From the NCBI RefSeq assembly GCF_001701025.1, contig NZ_CP016793.1, forward strand, positions 6,696,001 through 6,760,000: DNA of 64,000 bases, read 5' to 3'. The first letter of the stretch is position 1, and each line of letters opens with the position of its first letter. The position numbers and the translations under genes are program-made. The notes below the pieces were generated by a model, which had not been told where the DNA came from, did no database searches, and saw nothing but the letters and a program-made list of their open reading frames with translations. Below are positions 2,068 to 16,466 of the stretch, piece by piece. The DNA comes from Lentzea guizhouensis (GTDB lineage Bacteria; Actinomycetota; Actinomycetes; Mycobacteriales; Pseudonocardiaceae).

Positions 2068-3459
2068 TCAGCCGTGACGCATCGAGTTCAAGGACGCGAA
2101 CAACGGATCGGTGAACGATGTGATCTCCGCGTAGGCAGGCAGAAGCGCCGCATAAGCCGACACACCGGCAGGATCCGGCGTGAACACGTCCGCGGTGGTC
2201 ACCATCTCCTTCACCGCCGTGTCCCAGTCCGGGTGCACGCCGCTGCCGACCGCGGCGCAGATCGCCGCGCCCAGCCCGGCCGCGTCGCTCATCCTGGTGC
2301 GCCGCACCGGAGTGGCGAACACGTCGGCGAAGATCTGCATCATCAGGTCGGACCGCGAGCCACCGCCGGAGATCACGACCTCGGTGAAGTCGCGGCCCAG
2401 CGCCTCGGCCATCGCGCCGGAGTGGCGGTGCATCGTCATGGCGATGCCCTCCAGCACGGACCGGTAGATGTGGTCGCGGCCCTGCGTGCCGTCGAACCCG
2501 AGCAACGCGCCCCGCCGGTACGGGTGGTCCGTCGGCGCGAGCCAGTCCAGCACGGTCATCAGCCCGCCACATCCCGGCGCGACCGAGGCGGCACCGGCGG
2601 ACAGCTCGTCGAGGTCGGTGTCGAGCAGCTGGCGGTACCAGCTCACCGTCCACATCCCGCGCCGGATGCCGTCGCTCTCGTACAGGTACCGGCCGGGCAC
2701 GGACCCGAAGTTCGACCAGAACCGGCCCTCCGGGTCCACCGCGTGCTGCTCGCCGACCGTCATCGACGCGATGTAGGTCCCCAGCGACACCAGCAGCTCG
2801 GACGGGTTGCTCAGCCCGCTGCCCAGCGCCTCCACGGCCTTGTCGTTGGACGTCGCATACACCGGCAACCCGGCGGGCAGGCCCGTGGCGGCTGCCGCCG
2901 AGGCGGTCACGCGGCCGAGCAACGCGCCGGGGTCGACCAGCTCGAACAGCTGCGACCGGGTCATTCCGGAGTCCACATAGGACTGCGGGTCGGCCGACCA
3001 GCGCCACGACGCCTGGTCGACCGGCCACACCCCCTGGTAGTTCCCCGCGGTGTCGCGCAGCTCGCCGGTGAGCCGGTACGTCACGTACCCCGACGACGTC
3101 GTGACGTACCGGACCCCGGCAGCCGGCTCCTGCGCACGAGCCAGCCGCTCGTCCATCCAGCTCAGCATCGGTTCCGCGAGCATGCCGTCCGCGTCGAGCA
3201 GGCTGCGGCAGAACCGGATCGTGCACAGCCCGACGCCCGCGATCTCGCCCGGCGCGCCGGTGAACCGCTGCAACGCCTCCGCGCAGGCCGCGACGATCGA
3301 GTCCCACACGTCGTCGTCGGGGTGCACGACCTGGCCGGGCCGCGGGTACACCGACGGCCGCAGCGGGCGCTGGGCCGAGGCGTGCACGCGGCCGAGCTCG
3401 TCGACGATCGAGACCTTCGTGCTCTGCGAGCCGTTGTCGATCGCGACCAGGTAGCTCAC
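2068..3459 (-). CDS. FGGY-family carbohydrate kinase
   Basis: The 463-residue protein begins LVAIDNGSQSTKVSIVDE, the phosphate-1 loop of the actin/hexokinase-fold sugar kinases. Near residues 370-400 it has ISGGGSRSDLMMQIFADVF, the adenosine-binding region of FGGY kinases, so both halves of the family are present. The family phosphorylates polyols and ketoses such as xylulose, ribulose, glycerol or erythritol; the substrate here is not readable. GTG 3459 overlaps the stop of the FAD oxidase gene as GTGA, and this is the last gene of a ten-gene operon. I infer that it phosphorylates the carbon skeleton left after the upstream oxidoreductases act. Confidence 0.88.
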   Translation of the reverse strand: MSYLVAIDNGSQSTKVSIVDELGRVHASAQRPLRPSVYPRPGQVVHPDDDVWDSIVAACAEALQRFTGAPGEIAGVGLCTIRFCRSLLDADGMLAEPMLSWMDERLARAQEPAAGVRYVTTSSGYVTYRLTGELRDTAGNYQGVWPVDQASWRWSADPQSYVDSGMTRSQLFELVDPGALLGRVTASAAAATGLPAGLPVYATSNDKAVEALGSGLSNPSELLVSLGTYIASMTVGEQHAVDPEGRFWSNFGSVPGRYLYESDGIRRGMWTVSWYRQLLDTDLDELSAGAASVAPGCGGLMTVLDWLAPTDHPYRRGALLGFDGTQGRDHIYRSVLEGIAMTMHRHSGAMAEALGRDFTEVVISGGGSRSDLMMQIFADVFATPVRRTRMSDAAGLGAAICAAVGSGVHPDWDTAVKEMVTTADVFTPDPAGVSAYAALLPAYAEITSFTDPLFASLNSMRHG

Positions 3460-4934
3460 GGCTCGACCGGGAAGATCGTGCCCGCGTTCATGATCCCGTG
3501 CGGGTCGAAGCCGCGCTTGAGCACTTGCAGCAGGTGGTAGGCGCTGCCGTGCTCCTCGCGCGTCCAAGGCGTGCGGTACTTGCCGATGCCGTGGTGGTGC
3601 ACCATGGAACCGCCCAGCCGCAACGACTCCTCGACGATGATCGCGTTGAGCGGGATGTGGTACTCGGTGATCTCCTCTTCGGGCTCGCAGGAGATGCGGT
3701 AGTCGTAGACGAAGTAGAGGTTCGTGCCGGTCTGGTAGCTGTGCGACGAGTGCGCGCCCAGCATCGTGAGGTCGGCAGCGCGCGGGAACTCCGCGCGGAT
3801 CCGGCCGATGACCGCCTCGTACAGCGGGGTGACCTGCGACCAGTCGACCGACACCTCGGTGGTGTAGCCGAGGTGCCGGGTCTCCAGCATCGCCCGCTTC
3901 TCGGCGTCGATCTTGTCCTGGCCCCAGTTGAGGTTGTCGAGCCACTCGACGATCAGCTTCGGGTCGACGGCTTCGGTGCCCGCGAACGTCTTCTCGATCG
4001 CCTCCGCCGTGGCCCGCGCGATGCCGTCCGGGCCCTCGGCGACGAGCACGACCACGTTCTTGTCCTGCGAGAAGTGGCTGAAGTGCTGGTTCGCGTCCTC
4101 GGGGGAGTAGACCCGGCACACCGACGGCCGGTACCCGTCGGTGATCAACGTCCGCAGCCGCTCGACCGCGTCCCCGAACTCGTCGACCAGGAACCCGAAG
4201 TAGCGGTTGTGCTCCGGCTGGAACTTGAACAGCTTCACGGTGACCTCGGTGATCACGCACAGCGCGCCCTCGTTGCCGATCACCACGTGCCGGATGTCCG
4301 GTCCGGCCGCGCGCCGGGGCACGTTCTTGATCCGGGTCACCGTGCCGTCCGGGAACACCGCCTCCAGCCCCACGACCATGTCCTCGATCCCGCCGTAGAG
4401 CGTCGAGAACTGGCCGATCGAGCGGGTCGCCACCAGCCCGCCCATCTGCGCGAGCGGCTTGGACTGCGGCGAGTGCCCGGTCGTGAGCCCCTGCTCGCGC
4501 AGCAGGTCCTCCAGGCGTTGCAACGGGACACCGCACTGCGCGGTCACCATCATGTTGACCGGATCGATCTTCATGACGGCGTCCATGGTGGACCCGTCCA
4601 GGACGACCGTGTCCGCCACCAGCGTCTCCAGCCCGCCCTCGGTGGCGGTCCTGCCGGTGCGCGGCACGACATTGACCCGGTGCTCGTGCGCGAACGCCAG
4701 CACCTTCGACACCTCCTCGGTCGAGCCCGGCGTGACGATCGCCGCCGGGATCGGGCCGGTGAAGATGCCGTGCACCGAGGTGTACTTGCGGAACCGGTCG
4801 ACGCTCGCGTCGCGCAGCTCGTGCTCGTCGGTGGAGACCTTGTCGGCACCCAGCAACGAGACCAGCCCGGCGACGATCTCGGCGCGGCTCAGGTCGGAGG
4901 CGGAGGGGACGGAGGGCGGCGGTGCGGGGAACAT
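3456..4934 (-). CDS. FAD-linked oxidase, AGPS/VAO family
   Basis: The 492-residue protein has an N-terminal PCMH-type FAD-binding domain (about residues 45-225: PAAIVTPGSTEEVSKVL, then VVPRTGRTATEGG and GNEGALCVITEV) and a C-terminal FAD-oxidase domain ending FDPHGIMNAGTIFPVEP. The MVHHHGIGKYR segment matches the HHHG(V/I)GK signature of alkyldihydroxyacetonephosphate synthases and related oxidases. Related proteins oxidise hydroxy acids or polyols, or make ether-lipid precursors. Pairing with an FGGY kinase suggests a polyol or aldonate substrate (inference). The start is ATG 4934; a longer reading frame upstream overlaps the SDR gene and is not credible. A 50-base gap separates it from that gene. 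Confidence 0.85.
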   Translation of the reverse strand: MFPAPPPSVPSASDLSRAEIVAGLVSLLGADKVSTDEHELRDASVDRFRKYTSVHGIFTGPIPAAIVTPGSTEEVSKVLAFAHEHRVNVVPRTGRTATEGGLETLVADTVVLDGSTMDAVMKIDPVNMMVTAQCGVPLQRLEDLLREQGLTTGHSPQSKPLAQMGGLVATRSIGQFSTLYGGIEDMVVGLEAVFPDGTVTRIKNVPRRAAGPDIRHVVIGNEGALCVITEVTVKLFKFQPEHNRYFGFLVDEFGDAVERLRTLITDGYRPSVCRVYSPEDANQHFSHFSQDKNVVVLVAEGPDGIARATAEAIEKTFAGTEAVDPKLIVEWLDNLNWGQDKIDAEKRAMLETRHLGYTTEVSVDWSQVTPLYEAVIGRIRAEFPRAADLTMLGAHSSHSYQTGTNLYFVYDYRISCEPEEEITEYHIPLNAIIVEESLRLGGSMVHHHGIGKYRTPWTREEHGSAYHLLQVLKRGFDPHGIMNAGTIFPVEP

Positions 4935-4984
4935 GGCTCTGCTTTCAGGCGAGAGGTCGGCGGAGGCAGCGGGGTCGGCGGAGG

Positions 4985-5755
4985 TCAGCGGACGAGGTAG
5001 CCGCCGTCGACGACCAGCGTGTGGCCGTTGACGTAGTCGGAGGCGCGGCAGGCCAGGAACACCAGTGCGCCCATCAGGTCGCTCGGGTCGCCCCAGCGCC
5101 CGGCCGGGATGTGGTCGACCACCCGCTGGTTGGTCGCGGGGTCCGACCGGGTCGCCTCGGTGATCTTCGTGGCGAAGTAGCCCGGCGCCAGCGCGTTGAC
5201 CTGGATGTTGTGCTCGGCCAGCTCGTCGCAGTAGGCCTTGGTGAACCCGGCGATGCCGTGCTTGGTCGCGGCGTAGGCGGGGGACTGGCGGCCGCCGAGG
5301 AACGAGAACAGCGACGCGATGTTGATGATCTTCCCGGACCGCTGCGGGATCATGTACCTGGTCGCCTCGTGGGCCAGCTCGAACGCCGCCGTGAGGTTGA
5401 CCGCGATCATCGGGTCCCACTTGGAGCGGTCGAACGACTCCACGTCGTCGAGCAGGCTGATCCCGGCCGAGTTCACCACGATGTCGACGGACCCGAGCTC
5501 CCGCGCACACGTGTCGACCACGGTCGCGCACGCTCCCGGTGCGGTGATGTCCGCGGTCAGGCCGGCGAACCGCTGACCGTGCGCCTCGACCAGCCGCTGG
5601 GTCTCGCCGTCGTCGGACACCAGGCTGGGCACGAACACGTCGGCACCCGCGGCGGCCAGGCCGAGCGCGAACGCCTGGCCCAGCCCGGTGTTGCCGCCGG
5701 TGACGATCGCGTTCTTGCCCTTGAGCGAGAAGAAGTCCAGCCCGAAGTCCATCAC
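4985..5755 (-). CDS. SDR oxidoreductase, KduD-like
   Basis: The 256-residue protein has the classical SDR pattern: TGGNTGLGQ near residues 20-28 for NAD(P) binding, NSAG, a catalytic Ser-Tyr-x3-Lys set (INIASLFSFLGG, YAATK), and the ending ASDYVNGHTLVVDGGYLVR. The stretches IPAGRWGDPSDLMG and ALAPGYFATKIT follow 2-deoxy-D-gluconate/2-dehydro-3-deoxygluconate 5-dehydrogenase (KduD) closely. That favours a sugar acid or a similar hydroxy substrate, but SDR specificity is hard to read. The start is GTG 5755 (GTGA overlap) or the adjacent ATG 5752. Part of the ten-gene operon. Confidence 0.9.
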   Translation of the reverse strand: MMDFGLDFFSLKGKNAIVTGGNTGLGQAFALGLAAAGADVFVPSLVSDDGETQRLVEAHGQRFAGLTADITAPGACATVVDTCARELGSVDIVVNSAGISLLDDVESFDRSKWDPMIAVNLTAAFELAHEATRYMIPQRSGKIINIASLFSFLGGRQSPAYAATKHGIAGFTKAYCDELAEHNIQVNALAPGYFATKITEATRSDPATNQRVVDHIPAGRWGDPSDLMGALVFLACRASDYVNGHTLVVDGGYLVR

Positions 5756-7164
5756 ACGCTCCCGAAGGGATCGGAGACCGCGACGTAGGTGGTCTCGAGG
5801 TACTCCTCGATGCCCTCGGCACCACCCTCGCGGCCGATGCCGGAGTGCTTGACGCCACCGAACGGCGCGGCCGGGTTCGACACGATCCCGGTGTTGAGGC
5901 CGAGCATCCCGGTCTCCAGCGTCTCCGCGAGCCGCAGCCCGCGGTGGAGATCACGGGTGTACGCGAAGCACACCAGGCCGTACTCGGTGGCGTTGGCGAG
6001 CCGCACGGCGTCCTCTTCCGACTCGAAGGTGACGACCGGCGCGACCGGCCCGAAGATCTCCTCGCTCAGCAGCCGGGCGCCGACCGGGATGTCGGTGAGC
6101 ACGGTCGCGTCGTAGAAGAACCCCTTGCCCTCCAGTGCCTTCCCGCCGAGGACCACGCGCGCACCGCCCTCCACCGCGTCCTCGACCAGCTCGCTGACCT
6201 TGGCCCTGGTCTTGGCGTCGACCAGCGGGCCGAGCGGGTAGTCCCGCATCCGAGCGGCCAGCTTCCGGGTGAACTCCTCCGCGACGGAGGCGTGCACCAG
6301 GAACCTGTTGGCCGCCACGCACGCCTCACCGCCGTTGCGCAGCTTGGCCAGCACGGCGCCGTCGGCAGCGGCGTCGAGGTCCGCGTCCTCGAAGACCAGG
6401 AAAGGCGCGTTGCCGCCGAGTTCCATCGACACCCGCAGCACCTGGTCGGCCGACTGCGCGATGAGCTTCTTGCCCACCGCGGTCGAGCCGGTGAACGAGA
6501 GCTTGCGCAGCCGCGGGTCGCGCAGCAGCGGACCGGTGACCGCACCGGGATCGGTCGTCGTGACCACGTTCAGCACGCCGGCCGGCAGTCCGGCCTCGGT
6601 CAGCACCTCCGCGAACAGCAACGCCGTCAACGGGGTGAGCTCGGCGGGCTTCAGCACCATCGTGCACCCGGCCGCGATCGCCGGGGCGATCTTGCGGGTG
6701 GCCATGGCCAGCGGGAAGTTCCACGGCGTCACGAACAGGCACGGCCCGACCGGCCGCTTGACCGTGACCAGGCGGTTCTTCCCGTCCGGCGCGGTGGTGA
6801 ACCGGCCGGAGACGCGTGGTGCCTCCTCGGAGAACCACCGCAGGAACTCGGCGCCGTAGGCGACCTCGGCCCGCGACTCGGCCAGCGGCTTGCCCATCTC
6901 CGAGGTGATGAGCTGAGCGAACTCCTCGGTCCGCTCAGCCACCAGCTCGAACGCCTTGCGCAGGATCTCGGCCCTGGCCCGTGGCGCGGTCTTGCCCCAG
7001 GAGGCCTGGGCGGCGACGGCAGCGTCCAGGGCACGCACCCCGTCCTGGGGCGTGGCCTCGGCGACGGTCGCCAGGACCTCCTCCGTGGCCGGGTCCAGCA
7101 CGTCGAACGTGCGGCCGTCACTGGAATCGGCCCACTTGCCGTCGATGTACAACTTGGTGAACAT
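5752..7164 (-). CDS. NAD(P)-dependent aldehyde dehydrogenase, succinate-semialdehyde type
   Basis: The 470-residue protein has the standard ALDH landmarks: VTPWNFPLAMATRKIAPA, the FTGSTAVGKK cofactor loop, the general-base Glu in MELGGNAPF, and the nucleophile Cys in GGEACVAANRFLVH. The closest subfamily by these motifs is succinate-semialdehyde/glutarate-semialdehyde dehydrogenase (GabD), but the usual GQTC is GEAC here. ATG 7164 is chosen because GAGGGG lies eight bases before it; an earlier GTG at 7179 overlaps the upstream stop and would add five residues. It probably oxidises an aldehyde formed in the operon's pathway. Confidence 0.92.
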   Translation of the reverse strand: MFTKLYIDGKWADSSDGRTFDVLDPATEEVLATVAEATPQDGVRALDAAVAAQASWGKTAPRARAEILRKAFELVAERTEEFAQLITSEMGKPLAESRAEVAYGAEFLRWFSEEAPRVSGRFTTAPDGKNRLVTVKRPVGPCLFVTPWNFPLAMATRKIAPAIAAGCTMVLKPAELTPLTALLFAEVLTEAGLPAGVLNVVTTTDPGAVTGPLLRDPRLRKLSFTGSTAVGKKLIAQSADQVLRVSMELGGNAPFLVFEDADLDAAADGAVLAKLRNGGEACVAANRFLVHASVAEEFTRKLAARMRDYPLGPLVDAKTRAKVSELVEDAVEGGARVVLGGKALEGKGFFYDATVLTDIPVGARLLSEEIFGPVAPVVTFESEEDAVRLANATEYGLVCFAYTRDLHRGLRLAETLETGMLGLNTGIVSNPAAPFGGVKHSGIGREGGAEGIEEYLETTYVAVSDPFGSV

Positions 7165-7175
7165 GGCGTGTCCCC

Positions 7176-8069
7176 TCACAGCCTCAGGTCGACCCCGATG
7201 AGGTCCTCGTAGAGCTTCACCGGGGTCATCTCGCCGGCGCGGTCGCCGTACGAGGCGCGGGCGCGCCGGAAGATCTGCTCGACCAGCGCGGACAGCTCGG
7301 CCGGGACCCCGACCGACGCCGCGAGGTCGGTCGCCAGACCGAGGTCCTTGCAGGCCAGCGCGATCGCGAAACCCTCGTCGTAGTCACCGTGGTCCAAGAT
7401 GGACAAGACGTCTCGCTCGACGAAGTTGCTCTGGGCGGGGCTGTTGACGAGAGCGTTGCGCAGCACACCCAGGTCCACACCCGCCTTGACGCCGATCGCC
7501 AGCACCTCGGCCGTGGCGACCAGGTGCGAGAACCACAGCTGGTTCAGCATCAGCTTCACCGTGTAGCCCGCGCCGTGCCCGCCGACGTGCAGGATGCGCT
7601 CCTCTTCCCCCATGGCGTTGAACACCGGCCTCAACCGCTTCACGTCATCGAGGTCGCCACCGATGAAGATCTGCAGCGTCCCGTTCGCCGCGCCCACGGA
7701 CATGCCGCTGACCGGTGCGTCCAGCACGTGCAGGCCGGGGTTGGACTTGCGGACCTCGTCCGCCACCTCGGGCACGGACGTGGACATGTCGATCCACGTG
7801 CCGGTCGGGACCATCCCGGCGAGCACACCGGCCTGGCCGTTCATGACGTCGTGCACGTGCTTGGGCGTGGGCAGCATGGTGATCACCAGGTCGCTGGCCG
7901 CGGCGACCTCGGCCGGCGTGTCCGCCCACCTGGCGCCGCCGGCGACCAGCTCGTCCGCCGCCTCGCGCCGGATGTCGTTGACCACCAGGGAGAACCCGGC
8001 CTTCTGCAGGTTCCGCGTCATGCCGGAACCCATGCTGCCGAGCCCGATGAAACCGACGGTGCGGGTCAC
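7176..8069 (-). CDS. beta-hydroxyacid dehydrogenase, 3-hydroxyisobutyrate dehydrogenase family
   Basis: The 297-residue protein opens with the NAD(P) loop GFIGLGSMGSGM, has the substrate motif DAPVSGMSVGAANGTL near residues 118-133, and the catalytic lysine in GYTVKLMLNQL near residue 172. Family members include 3-hydroxyisobutyrate, tartronate-semialdehyde and gamma-hydroxybutyrate dehydrogenases, which interconvert hydroxy acids and semialdehydes. With the semialdehyde-type dehydrogenase next door this suggests a hydroxy acid to semialdehyde to acid sequence (inference). GTG 8069 overlaps the stop of the Fae homologue as GTGA, so the two are translationally coupled. Confidence 0.9.
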   Translation of the reverse strand: MTRTVGFIGLGSMGSGMTRNLQKAGFSLVVNDIRREAADELVAGGARWADTPAEVAAASDLVITMLPTPKHVHDVMNGQAGVLAGMVPTGTWIDMSTSVPEVADEVRKSNPGLHVLDAPVSGMSVGAANGTLQIFIGGDLDDVKRLRPVFNAMGEEERILHVGGHGAGYTVKLMLNQLWFSHLVATAEVLAIGVKAGVDLGVLRNALVNSPAQSNFVERDVLSILDHGDYDEGFAIALACKDLGLATDLAASVGVPAELSALVEQIFRRARASYGDRAGEMTPVKLYEDLIGVDLRL

Positions 8070-8584
8070 GCTCTCTCCTCCGGTGGCGTGTAGAACGGGT
8101 TGCTCGGGGACGCCGCCAGCACGTCTTTGAGCAGCGGCAGGTCTTGTGCGCCGTTGGCCAACGCCGTGCGCGTGGCCTCGCGGTTGTTGCGGTACACGGT
8201 GTCCGCGTCGTCAGCGCCGGGGTTGACCCAGACCGCCGCGATCAGCACGTGCGTCGAGGTGTCCGGCTCCGGGATGCTGCCCTCGGCCACCGCGTCAGCG
8301 ACCCCGGCGGCCACCCCGGCCTGCGCGGGACCCCAGATCAGCAGCCCGTGGTCGTCGTTCGCGGGCGCGGCCTTGGTGACGAACAACGTCATCGGCTTGA
8401 CCGGCAACGATGGCCGCAGCACCGCCACGAACGGCACGTGTCCGGCTGAAGGTGTCGCCAGCGCCGTGGCCCACGAGGTGCCGGCCGGTCCGTCGCGGTG
8501 GCCGAGCACGGTGTTGACGTGGGCCGCGTTGACGCCCTCGCCGACGAAGCTCTCCCCGATCTGCATGGTCTGTCCGTTCCGCAT
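8066..8584 (-). CDS. formaldehyde-activating enzyme (Fae) homologue
   Basis: The 172-residue protein follows Fae through most of its length: IGESFVGEGVNAAHVNTVLG at the start, including the His that is catalytic in Fae, then LRPSLPVKPMTLFVTKA and GPAQAGVAAGVADAVAEGSIP. Fae condenses formaldehyde with tetrahydromethanopterin in methylotrophs and methanogens; homologues elsewhere have other or unknown roles. Most actinomycetes lack this pterin, so a different one-carbon or aldehyde adduct is plausible. ATG 8584 lies two bases after the binding-protein stop; the in-frame ATG at 8566 would start right at the conserved block. It sits between an OpuC-type importer and three dehydrogenases in one operon. 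Confidence 0.85.
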   Translation of the reverse strand: MRNGQTMQIGESFVGEGVNAAHVNTVLGHRDGPAGTSWATALATPSAGHVPFVAVLRPSLPVKPMTLFVTKAAPANDDHGLLIWGPAQAGVAAGVADAVAEGSIPEPDTSTHVLIAAVWVNPGADDADTVYRNNREATRTALANGAQDLPLLKDVLAASPSNPFYTPPEERA

Positions 8585-8586
8585 GG

Positions 8587-9507
8587 TCAGATCAGCCCCT
8601 GCGAGGTCAGCCACTCCTGCGCGACCTCGTCCGGCTCGTCACCGTCGACGTCGACCTTGGCGTTGAGCTTCTGCATCTCCTCGGTGGTCAGCTTGTCCGC
8701 CATGGGCTTCAGCACGTCCGCGATCTTCGGGTGGCTCTTCAGCACGTCGGCCTGCAGCGTGAACCCGCCCTGGTAGATCGGGAAGAACGCCTTGTCGTCC
8801 TGCAGCACGGTCAGCCCGAGCGCGGCGATGCGACCGTCGGTGGCGAAGACCTCGCCGAAGTTGCAGTCCTTGCCGTCCTTGGTGGCGGTGTAGATGACGC
8901 CGGTGTCGAGCAGCTTGACGTTGTCCTTGGGCGCGTCGAAGGAGTACGTCTTCGAGACGCCGGGCCAGCCGTCGTCACGGGTGGAGAACTCGCTTTCGAT
9001 GCAGAACGTCTTCTCGTTCGCCGGGAGCTTCGCGATGTCGCTCATCTTCGTGACGTTGAGCTCCTTCGCCTTCTCGTTGCGGATCGCGAAGGTGTAGGTG
9101 TTGTTGAACGGCGCGGGCGCGACCCAGGCGATGCTCTTGGCCTCGTCGGCCTTCAGCACCGCGTCGAACTGCTCCTTCTCCGTCTTGAGCGGCTGGGTCT
9201 GCTTGTTGTAGGTGATCCAGGAGGTGCCGGTGTACTCCCAGTAGCCGACGAACTGCTTGTTCTCCAACGCCTGCCGCACGTTCGCCGAGCCCACCAGCTT
9301 GGTGTTGGCCTCCAGCGTGGCGCCGTGGGCGTTGAGCAGCTTCGTGGTCAGGTGGGCGAGGATGTACTGCTCGGCGAAGTCCTTCGAGCCGATCTGGCCG
9401 GACAGTCCTTTCAGGTCCTCGCTCTTGGCGGCGGTGTCGGCGGACGGGGAGCTCGAACAGGCGGCCAGCCCGAGGGCCAGCACGCCGATGAGGGCGCGCT
9501 TGTACAT
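8587..9507 (-). CDS. ProX/OpuAC-type ABC transporter binding lipoprotein
   Basis: The 306-residue protein has a lipoprotein signal (VLALGLAACSSSPS, cysteine at residue 17) and then IGSKDFAEQYILAHLTTKLL, the N-terminal motif of OpuAC/ProX binding proteins for quaternary ammonium osmolytes (the 'GSK.F.EQ..L' pattern). GYWEYTGTSW follows as in the same family. It would deliver choline, betaine, carnitine or a similar compound to the two permeases. AAAGGA precedes the ATG by eight bases. Its position before catabolic genes, rather than alone, suggests nutrient uptake rather than osmoprotection (inference). Confidence 0.9.
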   Translation of the reverse strand: MYKRALIGVLALGLAACSSSPSADTAAKSEDLKGLSGQIGSKDFAEQYILAHLTTKLLNAHGATLEANTKLVGSANVRQALENKQFVGYWEYTGTSWITYNKQTQPLKTEKEQFDAVLKADEAKSIAWVAPAPFNNTYTFAIRNEKAKELNVTKMSDIAKLPANEKTFCIESEFSTRDDGWPGVSKTYSFDAPKDNVKLLDTGVIYTATKDGKDCNFGEVFATDGRIAALGLTVLQDDKAFFPIYQGGFTLQADVLKSHPKIADVLKPMADKLTTEEMQKLNAKVDVDGDEPDEVAQEWLTSQGLI

Positions 9508-9544
9508 GGAAGGTCCTTTTGACGTTCGGTGTTCGGCGGAGGGG

Positions 9545-10291
9545 TTACAGACCGCGGGGGCGGACGAGGTCCTCGACGAGCCCGGCGGCCCAGTCGATGA
9601 GGACGGCGATCGAGGCGACGAGCACGGCGCCGACGACGATCACGGGGTAGCGCTGGAGCTTCAGGCCGTTCACGATCATGTCGCCGAGGCCACCGGCGTT
9701 GATGAAGGTCGCGATGGTGGCGACACCGACGGAGAACACCAGAGCGGTCCGCAGCCCGGCCAGGATCACCGGCGAGGCCAGCGGGAGCTCGATGCGCCAC
9801 AGCACCTGGCGCGGGGTCATGCCCATGCCCCTGGCGGCCTCGCGGGTGGCGTGGTCGACCTGTTCGAGGCCGGTCAGGGTGTTGCGCAGCACGGGCAGGA
9901 AGCAGTAGGCGACCAGCGAGATCAGGGCGGTGTAGAAGCCGGTCTGCCAGGCGATGGCCAGCAGGATCACCAGGCCGACCGCGGGTGTCGCCTGGCCGAT
10001 GTTGCCCAGGGCGATGACCAACGCGCGGACGGCCTTGGACCGCACGCGGTAGGCGGCGATCCCCGCGGGTATCGCGAGCAACGCCACGAGCGCGGACGAA
10101 ACCACGGTCAGCACCAGGTGTTCCTGCGTGCGGTCGAGGAGGTAGCCGGTGTTGAGCGTGCGTTGTTCGATCGAGTCGAGGGAGAGGGTGCTGAGCCAGA
10201 GGAAGAGCAGTGCCAGCACGACCACGACCGCGAGCGGCGTCACGAACCGCTTGAGCGCCAGGCGCTGCACCTGCCCGGTGTGGGCGGTCAT
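9545..10291 (-). CDS. OpuC/ProW-type ABC permease
   Basis: The 248-residue membrane protein has about six hydrophobic segments (first at residues 16-34). It carries the OpuCB/ProW loop TREAARGMGMTPRQVLWRIE near residues 140-160 and the family phrase 'NAGGLGDMIVNGL'. ATG 10291 overlaps the ATPase stop as ATGA, placing it third in the operon. A 37-base gap separates it from the binding protein. Together with the second permease it would form a hetero-dimeric channel, the usual layout of OpuC systems with OpuCB and OpuCD. Confidence 0.92.
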   Translation of the reverse strand: MTAHTGQVQRLALKRFVTPLAVVVVLALLFLWLSTLSLDSIEQRTLNTGYLLDRTQEHLVLTVVSSALVALLAIPAGIAAYRVRSKAVRALVIALGNIGQATPAVGLVILLAIAWQTGFYTALISLVAYCFLPVLRNTLTGLEQVDHATREAARGMGMTPRQVLWRIELPLASPVILAGLRTALVFSVGVATIATFINAGGLGDMIVNGLKLQRYPVIVVGAVLVASIAVLIDWAAGLVEDLVRPRGL

Positions 10292-11259
10292 GACGCCTCC
10301 ACCGGCTGCTTGGTCCTGTTCAGCGCGGCCGAGATCCGGGCGTGCGTCAACGAACCCCCGCCCCCGGACACGTTGACCCGGTCGGCACCGGTGACCACCA
10401 GCAGGTCCAGTGCGTCGCGCAGCGAGGCGTCGGCGTCGATCGCGGGCGCGGCGCTGTCCGGTGCGTCGAGCTCGACGTCGCTGATCGGGATCAACGCGAG
10501 GCGCATCAGACCGGCGCCGTGACCGATGAAGCTGGACACGTAGTCGTTGGCCGGGTTGGCGAGGATGTTCGCGGGCGTGTCGAACTGCTCGATCTGGCTG
10601 CGTTCGCTCAGCACCACGATCCGGTCGCCGAGCCGGATCGCCTCGTCGAAGTCGTGCGTGACGAAGATGATCGTCTTGCCGATCTCCGCCTGCAGCTTGA
10701 GGAACTCGGCCTGCAGCTTCTGCCGGGTGATCGGGTCGGTGGCGCCGAACGGCTCGTCCATCAGCATCACCGGCGGGTCGGCGGCCAGCGCGCGGGCGAC
10801 GCCGACGCGTTGCTGCTGACCGCCGGAGAGCTGCTTGGGGTAGCGGTGGGCGAACGTGCCGGGGTCGAGCTGGACGGTCCGCAGCAGCTCGTCGACGCGG
10901 TCGCTCGTGCGTTCCTTGGACCAGCCGAGCAGTTTCGGGACGGTGGCGATGTTCTCCGCGATCGTCATGTGCGGGAACAGGCCGATCTGCTGGATCACGT
11001 ACCCGATGTGGCGGCGCAGCTCGTTGGGGTCGAGGGCGAGGACGTCCTTGCCGTCGATGGTGATGGACCCGCTCGACGGCTCGATGATCCGGTTGATCAT
11101 CTTCATCGTCGTGGTCTTGCCGCAGCCGGACGGGCCGACGAACATGACGAGCTCGCCGGGCGCGACCGTCAGCGAGAAGTCCTCGACGGCGGCCTGCTGC
11201 TGGCCGGGGTAGCGCTTGGTGACGCGGCTCAGCTCGATGCCGACTCCAGGCTCAGACAC
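10288..11259 (-). CDS. OpuC/ProV-type ABC transporter ATPase with CBS-like tail
   Basis: The 323-residue ATPase has an intact Walker A (FVGPSGCGKTTTMKM, about residue 38), signature KQLSGGQQQRVGVARAL, Walker B VMLMDEPFGATD and the switch His in FVTHDFDEA. Residues about 255-320 are a shortened CBS-like region (IDADASLRDALDLLVV). In OpuA the CBS domains sense ionic strength; here only part of a pair is present, so osmotic gating is doubtful. GTG 11259 overlaps the end of the first permease gene by eight bases. It energises the importer of this operon. Confidence 0.92.
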   Translation of the reverse strand: MSEPGVGIELSRVTKRYPGQQQAAVEDFSLTVAPGELVMFVGPSGCGKTTTMKMINRIIEPSSGSITIDGKDVLALDPNELRRHIGYVIQQIGLFPHMTIAENIATVPKLLGWSKERTSDRVDELLRTVQLDPGTFAHRYPKQLSGGQQQRVGVARALAADPPVMLMDEPFGATDPITRQKLQAEFLKLQAEIGKTIIFVTHDFDEAIRLGDRIVVLSERSQIEQFDTPANILANPANDYVSSFIGHGAGLMRLALIPISDVELDAPDSAAPAIDADASLRDALDLLVVTGADRVNVSGGGGSLTHARISAALNRTKQPVEAS

Positions 11260-11905
11260 GGAGACCCCTCGAGGTGCTGTAGCGGGCGATCAGGACGAAG
11301 GCACCGTCGATCAGCAGTGCCAGCAGCACGACGCAGAGCGTGCCGGAGAGCGCGAAGTTGAGCGCGTTGACCGAACCGAGCGACGACAGGCCGCGGAAGA
11401 TGTAGAGCCCGAGCCCCGGCCCCGCGACGTAGGCAGCGATCGCCGCGATGCCGACGGTCAGCTGCGCGGCCACCCGGATGCCGGTCACGATCACCGGCCA
11501 CGCGAGCGGCAGCTGGATGCTCAGCAGGGTCTTCATTGGCGTCATCCCCATGCCCCTGGCGGACTCGACGATGTGGTGCGGGACCTCCCTGAGGCCGACC
11601 ACGGTGTTCCGCACGATCGGCAGCAGCGAGTAGAAGACCAGCGACACCACCGTGGGTGCCCACCCGAGCCCGAGCACCGGGCTGAGCAGGGCCAGCAGCG
11701 CCAGCGACGGGATCGTGATGGCGATGCCCGCCGCGGTCAGCGCCGTGGCACGGGGGATGTCGCGGTCCCACACCAGCAGCCCGACCAGCACGCCGAGCAC
11801 GGTGGCCAGTGCCAGGGACAGAGCCACGACGGCGAGGTGTTGCAGCGTCAGGGTGACGAGGTCTTCCCAGCGGCGGGCCAGGAAGTCGTCGAACGTTCCG
11901 GTCAC
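11252..11905 (-). CDS. OpuC/ProW-type ABC permease (first gene of operon)
   Basis: The 217-residue permease has about five to six hydrophobic segments and the coupling loop ESARGMGMTPMKTLLSIQ near residues 107-125, matching its partner. The longer open frame upstream would add about 90 basic, low-complexity residues that cross the regulator promoter. GTG 11905 is chosen because GGAGGG lies eight to ten bases before it and the protein then begins TGTFDDFLARRWED, a normal OpuC permease N-terminus. It is the promoter-proximal gene of the operon and faces the IclR gene across 115 bases that hold two palindromes. Confidence 0.88.
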   Translation of the reverse strand: MTGTFDDFLARRWEDLVTLTLQHLAVVALSLALATVLGVLVGLLVWDRDIPRATALTAAGIAITIPSLALLALLSPVLGLGWAPTVVSLVFYSLLPIVRNTVVGLREVPHHIVESARGMGMTPMKTLLSIQLPLAWPVIVTGIRVAAQLTVGIAAIAAYVAGPGLGLYIFRGLSSLGSVNALNFALSGTLCVVLLALLIDGAFVLIARYSTSRGLRV

Positions 11906-11966
11906 GGGGTGCGCCCTCCTTTCGGCGACGGTGCCGATGGCCGGGAACGGTAGATTTTCGGTTGTC

Positions 11967-12000
11967 TTGTGCACAACAGGTGTTGGCCATATGGCAACAC
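11967..12000. promoter_or_regulatory. two palindromes in the divergent permease/IclR promoter
   Basis: TTGTGCACAA (11967-11976) is a perfect 10-bp palindrome. A second, near-perfect palindrome at 11980-12000 has arms GTGTTG and CAACAC around a CCATATGG-like centre. Both lie in the 115 bases between the operon start (11905) and the IclR ATG (12021). IclR proteins usually bind such inverted repeats in their own divergent promoter, so these are the likely operators. Inference from position and symmetry only. Confidence 0.55.
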
Positions 12001-12020
12001 GCCTCGTAGAGTGCCGTGCC

Positions 12021-12863
12021 ATGCCTGGATCTTCACGTCGCAACTCAGCCGGTCTGGCCCGGGACATCGAGGTGCTGGAGGTGCTCGGCCGGCCGGAGGC
12101 GGTGCAGGCGGGCGGCCTCGGCGTGGTCCGGATCGCGGCACTGGTCGGCCGGGACAAGACGGTGGTGTCCCGCACGCTCGCGACGCTGGCGGACAGCGGC
12201 CTGGTCGACCGCGACCCGGAGTCCCTGAGCTACCGGCTGGGGTCACGGCTGTACGCGTTGGCGGCGCGCACGTCGGAGGGCGCGCTGGCGTGGAACGCGC
12301 GTGGACACCTGAAGCACCTCGCACAGGTGACACGCGAGACGGCGCACCTGTGCGTGCTGCGCGGCGGGAACGTGCTGACGCTGATGAGCGAGCTGAGCCC
12401 GAACCGCTTCCACACCACCGGGTGGGAGGGCGTGACGACCGCCGCCTGGCGCACGCCGTCGGGGCGCGCGTTGATCAGCGACTGGGACGCGGAGTCGCTG
12501 TCGGTCTGGTACGCCGAGCACGGCCACGACGAGGCGGTGCTGGAGGCGGGGGAGCGCGCCGACTCGACGTTCGCGGTGCTGGAACGCCCGTCACCGCGCC
12601 CGAACGCGATCAGCGACCTGGACTCGTTGGTGGCGGAGCTGAAGCGCGTCCGGGAGCGGGGCTACGCGACGTCGGACGAGGAGCTGGAACGCGGCGTGGT
12701 CGCGGCTTCGGCGCCGGTGTACGACTTCACGTCGCGGATCGTGGCGGCGTTGAACGTGTCGGCGCCGAAGGAGCGGATCGGGGCGCAGCTGGACAAGCTG
12801 GGGCGGATCGTGTCGGGGGCGGCGCGGGACCTGTCGGCGGCGCTGGGCTACTCGGCTCAGTGA
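12021..12863 (+). CDS. IclR-family transcription regulator
   Basis: The 280-residue protein has an N-terminal winged helix at about residues 15-75 (IAALVGRDKTVVSRTLATLADSGLVDRD as recognition region), followed by an IclR effector domain (AHLCVLRGGNVLTLMSEL, TAAWRTPSGRALISDW, RERGYATSDEELERGVVAASAPVYD). ATG 12021 is chosen since the longer frame upstream runs through the divergent promoter. It faces the ten-gene transport/catabolic operon and most likely controls it in response to the substrate or an intermediate. No strong ribosome site is visible. Confidence 0.9.
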   Translation: MPGSSRRNSAGLARDIEVLEVLGRPEAVQAGGLGVVRIAALVGRDKTVVSRTLATLADSGLVDRDPESLSYRLGSRLYALAARTSEGALAWNARGHLKHLAQVTRETAHLCVLRGGNVLTLMSELSPNRFHTTGWEGVTTAAWRTPSGRALISDWDAESLSVWYAEHGHDEAVLEAGERADSTFAVLERPSPRPNAISDLDSLVAELKRVRERGYATSDEELERGVVAASAPVYDFTSRIVAALNVSAPKERIGAQLDKLGRIVSGAARDLSAALGYSAQ

Positions 12864-13139: not shown

Positions 13140-13727
13140 TCACTCGCCGCGGTCCTCCAGGTACCGGCCGTGGTCCGCCTGCCGTTGCGCGTCCGCCGCG
13201 TGGAACCGCTCCGCCACCCGCACCGCATCGGTCTGCAGCAGTTCCAGCTGCCGCACCAGCTCCGTCCCCGACCCGCGCGCGGCGGCGTACCACCACGGCA
13301 GGTTCAGGTACGACTGCACCGACAACGGCAGGTCCGTCCCGATCAACCGGGTCACGGCGTGCAACGCGTCCGGGTCACCGCGCAGCTCCCGCGGCCGGTC
13401 GAGCATGCCGCGCAACACCTCCGCGATCTCGCCCAGCTTCGGGGCGACCTCCGCCGGAACCCGGCCGCCGAAGCCGTGCACGCGCAGGACCAGCGCGTCC
13501 AGTTCGGACCGCAGCTGCCCGGCCTCCTCCTCGGGATCGGTGACCAGCACGACCTTCTCGGGCGGTGCGGCCAGCGCGCCGACGCCGTAGAGTCCGGCGA
13601 CCACGAGCACCCAGTACGAGCCCGCGAGGCCGGCGAAGTGCAGGACCAGGCCCAGCAGGCCGCCGGCGCACCCGGCGAGGTTCTTCCAGGAGGCGAGGTA
13701 GCGCAGGACCGGGTTACTGGTAGCCAC
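13140..13727 (-). CDS. small membrane protein of the TelA operon (unknown function)
   Basis: The 195-residue protein has two hydrophobic segments at about residues 15-55 (LAGCAGGLLGLVLHFAGLAGS and YWVLVVAGLYGVGALAA), then a helical cytoplasmic part rich in Glu, Leu and Arg (VTDPEEEAGQLRSELDALVLRVHGFGGRVP). Similar short proteins near telA are sometimes labelled '5-bromo-4-chloroindolyl phosphate hydrolysis'; I see no catalytic motif. GTG 13727 overlaps the end of the VWA gene by 14 bases, so it is the last gene of a coupled four-gene unit. It may dock the TelA/VWA proteins at the membrane (inference). Confidence 0.75.
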   Translation of the reverse strand: MATSNPVLRYLASWKNLAGCAGGLLGLVLHFAGLAGSYWVLVVAGLYGVGALAAPPEKVVLVTDPEEEAGQLRSELDALVLRVHGFGGRVPAEVAPKLGEIAEVLRGMLDRPRELRGDPDALHAVTRLIGTDLPLSVQSYLNLPWWYAAARGSGTELVRQLELLQTDAVRVAERFHAADAQRQADHGRYLEDRGE

Positions 13728-15327
13728 GGATCTCCTTGAAGGCGGCCGAGAGCGAGCGGCTGCGGGCGTCGAACACCTTGCCGCCGCTCATCTTCGCCAC
13801 CCGTTCCATCTCGGAGGTGGCGCTCTCTCCGAACAGCACCGGGAAGACCGGGATGCCCTTCAGGTTCTGCGGCAGGGTCGCGTGGAACACCGAGAAGTCC
13901 TCGACGTCCTCGGAACCGGTGTTCTCGCCGTCGGTCATCAGCACGATCGAGGTGAAGCGGTCGGGGTCGGCGTTGATCTGTTCGCGCAGCACGTCGTACC
14001 CGCTGCGCAGGCTGCTGTAGATCGCGGTGCCGCCGCTTGCGTTCAACGCCTTCGCCGAGCTGCCGATCTGGTCGAGCACCGGGCGCGCGTTGTCCTGCGG
14101 CACCTCGTACTTCTGCGGGGAGCGGGGGCCGCTGTTGAACGGCAGCAGCGTCACCTGCTCGCGGCCGTGGAAGCGGTTGAACTTGCCGGCCAGCGAGGAG
14201 TCGGCGCCGGTGAGACCGACGACGGCCTCGCGCAGGCCCTCGATCGGGTCACCCTCCATCGAGCCGGACGTGTCGAGCACGTACAGCGTGCGGGACGGGC
14301 GGCGCAGCTGGTCGAAGTACGTGGTGACCAGACCGTCCACAGCGGACTGGCTGCCGGGGAAGGGCAGCTCCACCAGGTCGCGCACCGCGAACTTCCGGTC
14401 GAGCGGCACCTGCGGCACGACCGGTCGCCGGTGCGTGGAGTCCATGATCTTGCGCTGGACGTCGGCCGACTTCAAGTGGTCCGACAGCTTCTGGTGCGCC
14501 TCACGGGCGTCCGAGGTCGCGCTCGTCAGCAGGGTCAGCGGGTAGTCGGCGGTGACCACGCCGTCGTTCGGGTAGATCAACGTCAACGGCTGCGGCGTGG
14601 AAGCGTTGAGCGACAACAACACCGACTCGTAGTTGATCAGACCGTCCACTTTGGTGCCGGGGTCCTCGCCCTTCGCCCGCCGCGCGTACGCCTCCGACAG
14701 CCAGCCGGACGACCCGGCCGACATCGTCTGCGCCGAGAAGAACTCCTTGAGCTGCGGGGAGACCGCGGAGATCTTCGCGGCGTCCAGCGCGGAACCCGAG
14801 CCGGACAACGCCGCCGCCACCCCGACGAGCGCGGAGAAGCCGGAGTTCGAGGCCGACGGGTCGGTCATGCCGTAGGAGAACTTCTTCTGCCCGGCCGCCG
14901 CGGCGATCTCCGCCCAGCCGACCTGCTTGCCGTCCCAGCCCAGCTCCCGCACCTTCGCGGCGGGCAGCCCGAGCACGACGGGGGAGCCCATCACCTTCGT
15001 GGCCGTGCCAAGGCGTTTCTGGGCCTCCGGCACGAGTTCGAGGTAGCGGTTGGACGAGAACCACACCGCGTCGAACCCCTGTTCGGCGGTGCCGGACGCG
15101 ACCTTCTCGGCACCCTCGATCGTGCCGGTGAAGCTGAGCTTCACCGTGACACCGGTGGCCTTGGCGGCCTCGTCCAAGATCGGCTGCAGGTCGGCGAGCT
15201 CGCTGCCGGCGAGCACGCGCAGGACGCCGGCCTCGGCCTCGCCGACAGGTCTGATCGGGTCGGGGTCGTCGGAACACCCCGCGAGCAGCGCCACGGCGGC
15301 GACTGCCGGGATGAGGCGGCGGATCAT
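13714..15327 (-). CDS. lipoprotein with binding-protein and VWA domains
   Basis: The 537-residue protein has a lipobox (LLAGCSDD, cysteine near residue 18). Residues about 30-300 form a molybdate/sulfate-type binding-protein domain (VLRVLAGSELADLQPILDEAAK, FDAVWFSSNRYLEL, GMTDPSASNSGFSAL). Residues about 345-530 form a von Willebrand A domain with the metal-site motif DTSGSMEGD, a downstream Thr/Gly loop (SGGTAIYSSL) and MTDGENTG. It is an extracytoplasmic protein, coupled by ATGA overlap to telA. Fusion of a solute-binding lobe to a VWA domain suggests ligand-dependent assembly with the other binding protein of the operon. Function unknown. Confidence 0.85.
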   Translation of the reverse strand: MIRRLIPAVAAVALLAGCSDDPDPIRPVGEAEAGVLRVLAGSELADLQPILDEAAKATGVTVKLSFTGTIEGAEKVASGTAEQGFDAVWFSSNRYLELVPEAQKRLGTATKVMGSPVVLGLPAAKVRELGWDGKQVGWAEIAAAAGQKKFSYGMTDPSASNSGFSALVGVAAALSGSGSALDAAKISAVSPQLKEFFSAQTMSAGSSGWLSEAYARRAKGEDPGTKVDGLINYESVLLSLNASTPQPLTLIYPNDGVVTADYPLTLLTSATSDAREAHQKLSDHLKSADVQRKIMDSTHRRPVVPQVPLDRKFAVRDLVELPFPGSQSAVDGLVTTYFDQLRRPSRTLYVLDTSGSMEGDPIEGLREAVVGLTGADSSLAGKFNRFHGREQVTLLPFNSGPRSPQKYEVPQDNARPVLDQIGSSAKALNASGGTAIYSSLRSGYDVLREQINADPDRFTSIVLMTDGENTGSEDVEDFSVFHATLPQNLKGIPVFPVLFGESATSEMERVAKMSGGKVFDARSRSLSAAFKEIRGYQ

Positions 15328-16466
15328 GCTTGCTCCTCTGCACCGCGCACGCGGCTCAGGTGGTCGTGGGCGCGCCGGATCTCGAAGTCCAGCGCCTGCA
15401 CGGTGCCGGCCATCGAGTCGGCCGCGCGGGCCTTGAAGGTGTCGATCGCGTCGATCGCCGCGTAGATCTGGTCGAACGAGGTCCGCACGGCCTCGACGCC
15501 GACGGCGGGAGTGGCGGCGATGCGCTGGATGTCCTGACCCTGCGACGACATCAGCGCCGCGTTGGACTTCAGGATCGAGTCGGTCAGCCCGCGCACGGCG
15601 TCGACCTGGTCGATCACCTCGCGCTGCCCGGCGAGCGCCGCGGCGACCGCGACCCCGATGCGCAGCGCCGTGACGGTCGTGCCGACCGCCCGTTCGATGC
15701 CCTTGATCAGCTCGTCGTTGTTGCGGCGCACGACGTCGAGCGCCAGGTACCCCTGCGCGCAGACGGCGAGCTGGGTCAGCAGGTCCTGGTGCCGTTGCCT
15801 CAGCCCGAACAGCACGTCGGCGCGCAACGCGTTGGCCCGTCCCGGATCCGACAGGTCGAGGATCTGCACCTGCCGTTCGACCGCCTCGTCCATCTCACCG
15901 GCGAGCGCGGCGTCCTGCGACAGCTTGGTCATCAGGTCCCACAACCGCTGCCGCTCGCCCTTGATGGCCGCGTTGTCCCGTTTGAGCGCGTCCTGCCCGG
16001 ACCGCAGCTTCAGCACGATCCGGTTGACCGGCTCGTCGGCCGCCCGCAACCGCGCCAGCAGGCCCTTCGCGGCGTTGCCACCGGGGAGGAACCCGAGGAC
16101 CTTGCGGCCGGTCAGCTTCGACAGGTCCTGCGGGTCGAGCTCGCGCACCGACCGGCGCAGCTCGGTCAGGCTCGTCGACACCTGCGTGGTGTTCGGCGAC
16201 TGCACCGAGGCCAGCGTGCGGTCGAGCATCCGGCCGGCGACCTGCGCGGCCACCCGCATCTCCGCCTCGCCGAGCACGAGTGCCTCATCCACGATCCGGC
16301 TGAAGTCCGGCGACTGCGGGTCAACGGCGTTCAAGGCGTCGATGAACGCCTGGGCCTGCGCTGACAGCTCGGTGCGGGTGTCGTCGGCGACGGGGATGAG
16401 CCCGGCCGCCCGCTCGACCGGGACCGGCTCGACGGGGTCCGGGGGAGTGAGCACGAAGTCCGTCAT
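15324..16466 (-). CDS. telA: TelA-family toxic anion resistance protein
   Basis: The 380-residue protein is almost wholly helical, as expected for TelA/KlaA. It has FIDALNAVDPQSPDF near residue 42, the family core GRKVLGFLPGGNAAKGLLARL near residue 120, and long coiled helices through IGVAVAAALAGQREVIDQVDAVRGLTDSIL. TelA proteins were named from plasmid tellurite resistance, but their biochemical role is unclear; comparative genomics places them with Ter and VWA proteins in a membrane-linked stress response. It has ATG 16466, one base after the upstream stop, and an ATGA overlap with the VWA gene. I infer that it is the cytoplasmic scaffold of the operon. Confidence 0.9.
   Translation of the reverse strand: MTDFVLTPPDPVEPVPVERAAGLIPVADDTRTELSAQAQAFIDALNAVDPQSPDFSRIVDEALVLGEAEMRVAAQVAGRMLDRTLASVQSPNTTQVSTSLTELRRSVRELDPQDLSKLTGRKVLGFLPGGNAAKGLLARLRAADEPVNRIVLKLRSGQDALKRDNAAIKGERQRLWDLMTKLSQDAALAGEMDEAVERQVQILDLSDPGRANALRADVLFGLRQRHQDLLTQLAVCAQGYLALDVVRRNNDELIKGIERAVGTTVTALRIGVAVAAALAGQREVIDQVDAVRGLTDSILKSNAALMSSQGQDIQRIAATPAVGVEAVRTSFDQIYAAIDAIDTFKARAADSMAGTVQALDFEIRRAHDHLSRVRGAEEQA

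Follow-up and report, generated by a model that had tools for sequence, protein, structure and literature searches.

Ten minus-strand genes in a 64,000-nucleotide stretch of the Lentzea guizhouensis genome (hereafter the window) combine an OpuC-type importer with six enzymes, which raises the question of what compound they take up and degrade. The initial annotation of this stretch left the substrate unassigned, suggesting a zwitterionic or methylated polyol or sugar-acid compound that would be imported, demethylated, oxidized, and phosphorylated. With confidence a little short of even, we tentatively propose that the compound is glyceryl-N,N,N-trimethylhomoserine (GTS), the headgroup that remains when the betaine lipid diacylglyceryl-N,N,N-trimethylhomoserine (DGTS) loses its acyl chains, and that the operon serves for its import and degradation. 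The gene set, its conservation, the protein families, the active-site residues, and the exchangeability of modules are what the sequences themselves provide, and from these we infer the substrate and every reaction. The operon, from its first gene onward, and its divergent regulator are as follows.

11252 to 11905, minus strand: OpuC-type ABC permease 1, at the operon start (Pfam BPD_transp_1).
10288 to 11259, minus strand: ProV/OpuCA-type ABC ATPase (NCBIfam proV, 334 bits, above the cut-off of 326.6).
9545 to 10291, minus strand: OpuC-type ABC permease 2 (Pfam BPD_transp_1).
8587 to 9507, minus strand: ProX/OpuAC-type substrate-binding lipoprotein (Pfam OpuAC).
8066 to 8614, minus strand: Fae homologue (Pfam Fae, 166 bits; coordinates from the longest start), proposed to catalyze an amine-eliminating step.
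7176 to 8069, minus strand: beta-hydroxyacid dehydrogenase (Pfam NAD_binding_2/11), putative homoserine-betaine dehydrogenase.
5752 to 7164, minus strand: aldehyde dehydrogenase (ALDH) of the succinate-semialdehyde dehydrogenase (SSADH) type (NCBIfam SSADH is the best model, below its cut-off), putative fumaric-semialdehyde dehydrogenase.
4985 to 5755, minus strand: YgcW/KduD-like short-chain dehydrogenase/reductase (SDR), 66% identical to Escherichia coli K-12 YgcW, proposed to oxidize glycerol C2.
3456 to 4934, minus strand: YgcU/AGPS-like flavin adenine dinucleotide (FAD) enzyme of the AGPS/GlcD family, 63% identical to E. coli K-12 YgcU, proposed to cleave the ether of an alkyl-dihydroxyacetone phosphate (alkyl-DHAP).
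2068 to 3459, minus strand: YgcE-type FGGY kinase, 44% identical to E. coli K-12 YgcE, putative alkyl-dihydroxyacetone kinase.
12021 to 12863, plus strand: divergent IclR-family regulator (NCBIfam IclR-family models, below cut-off).

The initial annotation had already placed ten minus-strand genes from 11905 to 2068 and the divergent IclR gene at these positions, and its family calls hold. The operon genes overlap by 4 to 28 bases or are separated by gaps of 11 to 50 bases, and ATG codons are read at 4934 (FAD enzyme gene) and 7164 (ALDH gene). A promoter and terminator scan of the locus found no signals, a result that says little in an actinomycete. The genome comprises 10 Mb in one contig, and the closest named relatives at the operon locus are Lentzea species.

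The gene set is conserved far beyond this genus. A scan for Fae relatives, using one genome per species, gave 84 loci; the locus counts reported here refer to the best 80 of the 84, presence calls rest on identity cut-offs chosen in this analysis, and gene absences mean little at the 14 of the 80 loci shorter than 18 kb. The IclR gene and the hydroxyacid dehydrogenase gene were each present at 72 of the 80 loci, the binding-protein gene at 71, the ATPase and permease 2 genes at 70 each, and the permease 1 and ALDH genes at 68 each, with at least three of the four importer genes at 70. Among the 66 loci of at least 18 kb, the corresponding counts were 65 for IclR, 60 for the binding protein, 65 for the dehydrogenase, and 62 for the ALDH. 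Half of the loci (40/80, in 11 named genera plus four loci from metagenome-assembled genomes under broader labels) share the window layout with the SDR, FAD enzyme, and FGGY kinase genes (type 1); 28 (11 named genera plus two loci from metagenome-assembled genomes) have a second layout (type 2), in which the genes after Fae encode, in turn, an enolase-superfamily enzyme, a second ALDH, the dehydrogenase, a group III iron-dependent alcohol dehydrogenase, and the ALDH. Of the remainder, one combines the type-1 genes with the enolase gene, and the other 11 contain only the core or are truncated.

Gene order and orientation differ between loci, with parts inverted or reordered (for example, at L035, L036, L084, and L095), from which we conclude that the association has survived rearrangement. 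Leucobacter ruminantium has the importer, SDR, FAD enzyme, and FGGY kinase genes at one site and the Fae, dehydrogenase, and ALDH genes at another, with an IclR gene at each, while a Streptomyces clavuligerus plasmid carries an importer-Fae-dehydrogenase-ALDH set about 290 kb from its ygc-type module. Fae, dehydrogenase, and ALDH genes form a set with a major facilitator superfamily (MFS) transporter gene at Leucobacter loci L081 and L096, and Caballeronia and Burkholderia have a set of Fae, aldo-keto reductase (AKR), ALDH, and MFS genes. The association appears to be more than chance, being kept in many genera even where parts are inverted or reordered, and the earlier reading of the locus as a conserved import-and-catabolism operon stands; the refuting condition set in the initial annotation, a gene set that does not stay together in other genomes, did not hold. 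Its distribution is patchy: counting the Lentzea genome itself in each case, a matching Fae occurs in 7 of 24 genomes of the genus and in 8 of 99 relatives overall, while any Fae occurs in 17 of 396 sampled genomes of the phylum and the FAD enzyme (E <= 1e-110) in 3 of 396. An all-against-all clustering of open reading frames contained many wrong-frame members and one merged cluster of 2138 frames, and is no proof that other families are absent from the loci.

The importer speaks to the first part of the question. It is complete in the window, with an OpuAC binding protein, two permeases, and a ProV ATPase, and the binding protein, whose best PDB matches are acetylcholine/nicotine sensor scaffolds, has cage-type residues. 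Tyr92, Tyr206, Tyr245, Arg177, and Lys42 were found in all 73 aligned rows and Tyr138 in 72, spanning 71 loci; we take the tyrosines, from ProX structures, to be cage residues. The importer class and these kept residues suggest a zwitterionic substrate that bears both a carboxylate and a quaternary ammonium group, in keeping with the initial annotation's importer of the quaternary-ammonium class and its likely substrate, a zwitterion with a polyol part.

Catalytic-type residues are likewise intact in the window enzymes and nearly always in their relatives. Counted as alignment rows, these are SDR Lys165 (50/50) and Tyr161 (49), ALDH Cys282 and Glu248 (75/75), dehydrogenase Lys172 and Asn176 (74/74), and kinase Asp206 (41/41); the FAD enzyme set lacks L075, the kinase set lacks six loci with partial matches, the ALDH set includes three rows of the other ALDH of type-2 loci, and the SDR set includes one non-orthologue (L100).

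The last three operon genes are kin of E. coli ygcW, ygcU, and ygcE, which lie near ygcS, ygcP, and ygcQ/R and are annotated as putative only; this kinship, along with the AGPS-type active-site residues of the FAD enzyme, was overlooked in the initial annotation. By sequence, the best PDB matches of the FAD enzyme are AGPS (162 bits, versus 111 for the next family), and its Arg269, Tyr402, and His441-443, numbered from base 4919, align to AGPS Arg419, Tyr578, and His615-617. The histidines and the tyrosine occur in 47 of 47 rows and the aligned arginine in 17 of 17; by contrast, H-GDGN-H and GEHG take their place in E. coli GlcD and in one GlcD-like paralogue. Tyr508, Arg352, and Arg447 are described as important for catalysis in Dictyostelium AGPS (PMC3509576). 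The first two align to the window FAD enzyme if the printed chain numbers are shifted by three, a shift to which both residues point, and Arg447 fell in a stretch that phmmer left unaligned. Rankings by overall fold split, with Foldseek placing AGPS first and VIA-align placing D-lactate dehydrogenase first.

The company kept by the SDR-FAD-FGGY module also points to glycerol. Its three genes are adjacent in the window, S. clavuligerus, Priestia, Vibrio, and Ilyobacter, and antiterminators responsive to glycerol-3-phosphate lie near it in E. coli, S. clavuligerus, and Enterococcus (E. coli YgcP, named a "putative anti-terminator," is 45 to 47% identical to the annotated ones). An OpuC-type "osmoprotectant" importer stands beside the module in Enterococcus raffinosus and E. 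gilvus; its binding protein, which is not among the 73 aligned rows, is 27% identical to that of the window and has Gly, Phe, and Glu at positions 42, 138, and 177. In Vibrio pelagius the neighbor is a BCCT transporter gene, with a second BCCT gene further off. Taken together, the SDR, the ketose-type kinase, the AGPS-type flavoenzyme, and the antiterminators suggest conversion of a glycerol ether, via an alkyl-DHAP, to DHAP, and the phosphorylation by the FGGY kinase that had been predicted earlier is retained in this scheme.

The type-2 loci offer a second view of the same problem. In a search of 23 type-2 genomes of unstated completeness at E <= 1e-80, 21 lacked any relative of the FAD enzyme (23 of the 28 type-2 loci were covered, leaving out L055, L068, L074, L078, and L091, and the core-only locus L042 is excluded from the count), so the SDR-FAD-FGGY and enolase modules behave as alternatives for the same slot. 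The other two genomes have a separate set with a 56 to 57% identical FAD relative, a GlpP-type antiterminator, and an MFS gene, and such a relative lies elsewhere in the genomes of L042, L058, L059, and L081, again with GlpP and MFS genes. A second ygc-type clade, 56 to 57% identical in the FAD enzyme, was observed in Leucobacter, Cryobacterium, and Frigoribacterium (L133, L134, L135, and L136), with a GlpP-type antiterminator and an MFS gene as neighbors; it is perhaps for a different glycerol ether.

The type-2 module may possibly be a second way of opening a glycerol ether. The nearest models and PDB labels of its enolase-superfamily enzyme are sugar-acid dehydratases, and it keeps the first lysine and the histidine, with arginine for the second lysine of KxK in 32 of 32 rows (30 distinct, since L034 and L104 appear twice; L041 is not included). 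We consider that this arginine would fit an enolase-type elimination better than an epimerization. Hydroxyproline-betaine epimerase provides a precedent for an enolase-type betaine 2-epimerase, and we considered that role here; it is less likely, because the substitution would leave a single base. Separately, at L138, a Fae (40% identity) and an enolase relative (44%) lie between two frames related to the Priestia zinc-dependent alcohol dehydrogenase, with a dipeptide-type ABC importer adjoining.

Alternatively, the operon may be an ordinary polyol or sugar-acid pathway, with the SDR and FAD enzyme working as simple dehydrogenases, a ketose as the kinase substrate, Fae scavenging no more than formaldehyde or another aldehyde, and an importer that has drifted to an uncharged substrate. 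The FGGY, KduD-like, and GlcD-superfamily labels, the sugar-acid dehydratase models nearest to the type-2 enolase, the VIA-align ranking, genes of electron transfer flavoprotein (ETF) type adjoining the FAD enzyme elsewhere, and loci with an MFS gene in place of OpuC would all suit it. However, the active-site residues of the FAD enzyme are AGPS-type and not GlcD-type, OpuC or BCCT adjoins the module in Enterococcus and Vibrio, the binding protein keeps its cage-type residues, and the genome has no detectable methenyl-tetrahydromethanopterin (H4MPT) cyclohydrolase. We therefore think this alternative unlikely, and the sugar-acid substrate allowed by the initial annotation gives way to a glycerol ether, to which the two exchangeable modules point instead. 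Sulfolactaldehyde, tartronate, and sugar-acid pathways, suggested by the dehydrogenase and ALDH labels, were also considered, and none covers OpuC/BCCT, AGPS-type residues, and aspartase together.

That aspartase comes from the other half of the proposed pathway. The window Fae scores 145.8 bits against an NCBIfam cut-off of 118.05 and has His32 in 83 of 83 rows, while in all 83 Ala99 stands where the solved Fae 1y5y has the histidine of GPAQ-H. Methenyl-H4MPT cyclohydrolase, the sole H4MPT enzyme searched for, was not found in the Lentzea genome at E <= 0.001, with control genomes positive, so delivery of formaldehyde to the H4MPT route is an unlikely role for the window Fae. Demethylation with formaldehyde capture, the one step of the initial annotation's overall reading that fell while import and catabolism, importer class, zwitterion-polyol substrate, and phosphorylation stood, was rejected, given this missing cyclohydrolase and the lack of a demethylase gene in the ten-gene operon (other loci were not searched for one).

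What Fae might do instead is indicated by clusters that lack it. The ygc-type module of Vibrio and of Priestia has, within about 10 kb and in place of Fae, genes for a divergent aspartase (a "lyase") and for another ALDH. The lyases score 348 and 485 bits against the PRK12273 model, whose family cut-off is 510; of the two ALDHs, which share 50% identity, that of Vibrio matches the betaine-aldehyde dehydrogenase model best, with a score under the cut-off. The Vibrio AKR shares 70 to 71% identity with the AKR encoded next to Fae in Caballeronia and Burkholderia; for the Priestia MFS protein, identity is 61 to 63% to the MFS protein of those Fae clusters and 56% to E. coli YgcS. Because the clusters share AKR and MFS genes, Fae and aspartase look like alternatives, and at a 35% identity cut-off no aspartase-type lyase was found at the 80 Fae loci. 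Relative to E. coli AspA, GSSxxPxKVN and the ST of QSTND are kept in the lyases, but the Gly-Thr-Ser motif (GTS in residue letters) reads GIG or GIS and the Asn of QSTND is Ser; we take these changed positions to be contacts to the substrate's amino group in aspartase. Judging by the aspartase stand-in and the betaine-aldehyde-type ALDH, this half would yield an aspartate-type betaine and then fumarate and trimethylamine, and the SSADH-like, not betaine-aldehyde-like, ALDH of the Fae version fits removal of trimethylamine by Fae before the ALDH acts.

Further lyase clusters were seen in other genomes. Ensifer W2-B9 has lyase, ALDH, and AKR genes with a different ABC importer, the lyase being 41% identical to that of Vibrio; near this cluster in Ensifer adhaerens W2-B9 (L141:1254-6669) lie two dihydroxyacetone-kinase sets and an SDR gene, which might supply a different way of phosphorylating a glycerol half. 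A Peribacillus plasmid carries a single 852-amino-acid frame (L142:11998-14556) with an aspartase-family lyase (residues 9-340) and most of a BCCT transporter (393-823). This frame may be a true fusion or neighbors joined by a deletion, and it ties the aspartase-type lyase to a betaine transporter. Upstream of one Leucobacter Fae operon, and on the other strand, lies a gene for a thiamine-diphosphate enzyme like sulfoacetaldehyde acetyltransferase (L085:6355-8352); it was dropped as a pathway member, since the genes listed for Leucobacter L081 and L096 include none.

GTS is proposed because it joins both halves, a glycerol ether and homoserine betaine. In the proposed route, the zwitterion would be taken up by the OpuC-type importer, the YgcW-like SDR would oxidize glycerol C2 to a ketone, and the YgcE-like kinase would phosphorylate the free CH2OH to give an alkyl-DHAP. 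The YgcU/AGPS-like flavoenzyme would then run alkyl-DHAP-synthase chemistry in reverse with water, its C1 flavin-N5 adduct expelling the alkoxide to give DHAP and homoserine betaine. The hydroxyacid dehydrogenase would convert homoserine betaine to aspartate-semialdehyde betaine, from which the Fae homologue, after binding it, would eliminate trimethylamine, and the resulting fumaric semialdehyde would be oxidized to fumarate by the SSADH-like ALDH. In type-2 loci, oxidation by the iron-dependent alcohol dehydrogenase and second ALDH would instead turn the glycerol end into a glycerate ether, from which the enolase-type enzyme would yield pyruvate by driving out the ether oxygen.

DGTS, in which an ether bond joins glycerol and homoserine betaine, takes the place of phosphatidylcholine in certain algae and nonflowering plants (PMC9892843). 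Soil bacteria under phosphate limitation also make it, as a substitute for phospholipids (PMC3972451), and an algal lipase frees glyceryltrimethylhomoserine from lyso-DGTS (PMC11711679). A 2023 review describes the enzymes that break the DGTS ether bond as not yet identified (PMC9892843). Four points weigh against our proposal: the ten-gene operon has no lipase; the ETF-type genes adjoining the module in E. coli, Enterococcus, and Ilyobacter are unexplained by redox-neutral AGPS chemistry; we know of no precedent for a trimethylamine-eliminating Fae step; and the nearest solved relatives of the dehydrogenase, with 2-hydroxymethylglutarate dehydrogenase as the best PDB match, act on beta-hydroxyacids.

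The last point makes a serious rival of the headgroup of another betaine lipid, DGTA, namely glyceryl-2-(hydroxymethyl)-N,N,N-trimethyl-beta-alanine. The ether-opening logic would be the same, the released alcohol would be 3-hydroxyisobutyrate with a trimethylammonium group, the dehydrogenase would produce a formyl compound, and Fae would remove trimethylamine or formaldehyde. A dehydrogenase of the 3-hydroxyisobutyrate/2-hydroxymethylglutarate family is a close match to such a 2-hydroxymethyl acid. Nevertheless, we regard DGTA as quite unlikely, since the aspartase-type lyase in the versions from Vibrio and Priestia fits an aspartate-type betaine, the Vibrio-version AKR is common to Fae clusters, and no clear breakdown leads beyond formylacrylate. 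DGTA is mostly an algal lipid. DGTS, by contrast, is made by soil bacteria (PMC3972451).

The two halves could also serve two substrates under one regulon, Fae, dehydrogenase, and ALDH degrading free homoserine betaine, a known osmolyte of Trichodesmium (PMC13403184, PMC5864184), and the SDR-FAD-FGGY module serving another glycerol ether. The first part does stand alone at some loci, namely Leucobacter L096 and Glaciimonas L105 (at E <= 1e-80 neither genome contains the FAD enzyme) and the Caballeronia and Burkholderia loci inspected, and the second stands alone at the inspected loci of E. coli, Enterococcus, and Ilyobacter. Against this, both parts occur together at the 40 type-1 loci, 38 of which have at least three importer genes, and we find the idea improbable. 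It is very improbable that the bond broken is C-N and not C-O, with the AGPS-like enzyme expelling trimethylamine from a phosphorylated ketone made from a 2,3-dihydroxypropyl-trimethylammonium-type compound: the same three enzymes and the OpuC, BCCT, and antiterminator neighborhoods are compatible with it, but Fae, the dehydrogenase, and the ALDH would be left jobless, and the aspartase-type lyase and enolase module would go unexplained. A glycine-betaine osmoprotection system with unrelated enzymes is hardly credible, for although the importer family would suit it, the importer and catabolic genes stay together through rearrangements, and Fae is found with at least three importer genes at most loci (70/80), not the importer without a linked catabolic operon that osmoprotection would lead one to expect.

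Degradation of GTS, in turn, raises the potential for a broader claim, which we consider possible but doubtful: that two unrelated three-enzyme modules open the same betaine-lipid glycerol ether, one by a reverse AGPS flavoenzyme acting on a phosphorylated ketone to give DHAP and the other by an enolase-superfamily etherase acting on a glycerate ether to give pyruvate; that a Fae fold serves as a trimethylamine lyase doing the job of a modified aspartase; and that E. coli ygcW/U/E is a glycerol-ether cleavage module. No description of this pathway was found in the open-licence PubMed Central literature (titles and abstract openings, with some passages), and members of known families thus appear to form a pathway for which we found no published account. 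The proposal names two concrete candidates for cleaving the ether bond of the DGTS headgroup, lays out how fumarate and trimethylamine would arise together with either DHAP or pyruvate, suggests a function for E. coli K-12 ygcW/U/E, and offers a possible role for Fae-fold proteins outside the H4MPT route.

Elsewhere in the window, two binding-protein-dependent ABC permease genes (360-2059) are directed toward the operon end and lie outside the conserved set. A gene for a solute-binding-protein/von Willebrand A fusion adjoins a TelA-family gene (13714-16466), and a non-ribosomal peptide synthetase of 3610 amino acids has three adenylation and four condensation stretches (23611-34443).

How does the operon compare with known systems? 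The importer shares its four-gene layout, OpuAC domain, and cage-type residues with OpuC/ProX/OsmU osmoprotectant importers but, unlike them, is tied to catabolic enzymes and an IclR regulator. The window Fae shares family and His32 with Fae of the H4MPT pathway, and differs in the replacement of the GPAQ-H histidine of 1y5y by alanine and in belonging to a genome where the methenyl-H4MPT cyclohydrolase search came up empty. The Vibrio and Priestia lyases retain the signature loop of aspartase yet fall below the family cut-off, with the amine-side positions changed. The type-2 enolase is related, at 71.7 bits, to 3,6-anhydro-L-galactonate cycloisomerase, an ether-opening member of the enolase superfamily, and we propose the same kind of beta-elimination for it; it has KxR where some related enzymes have KxK, and its proposed substrate differs. 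The E. coli ygc locus lacks Fae, hydroxyacid dehydrogenase, and ALDH genes and has MFS transporters and ETF-like proteins, with ygcE on the other strand beyond yqcE; its YgcS is nonetheless 49 to 56% identical to the MFS proteins of Fae or lyase clusters in Leucobacter, Caballeronia, Burkholderia, and Priestia. Finally, AGPS/ADPS is the closest PDB family to the FAD enzyme by sequence, with Arg419, Tyr578, and the three-histidine motif kept; the FAD enzyme is shorter, at about 490 amino acids against 584 and 658 in the AGPS PDB chains, sits in a catabolic operon, and is proposed to cleave a polar ether, whereas AGPS makes a lipid ether.

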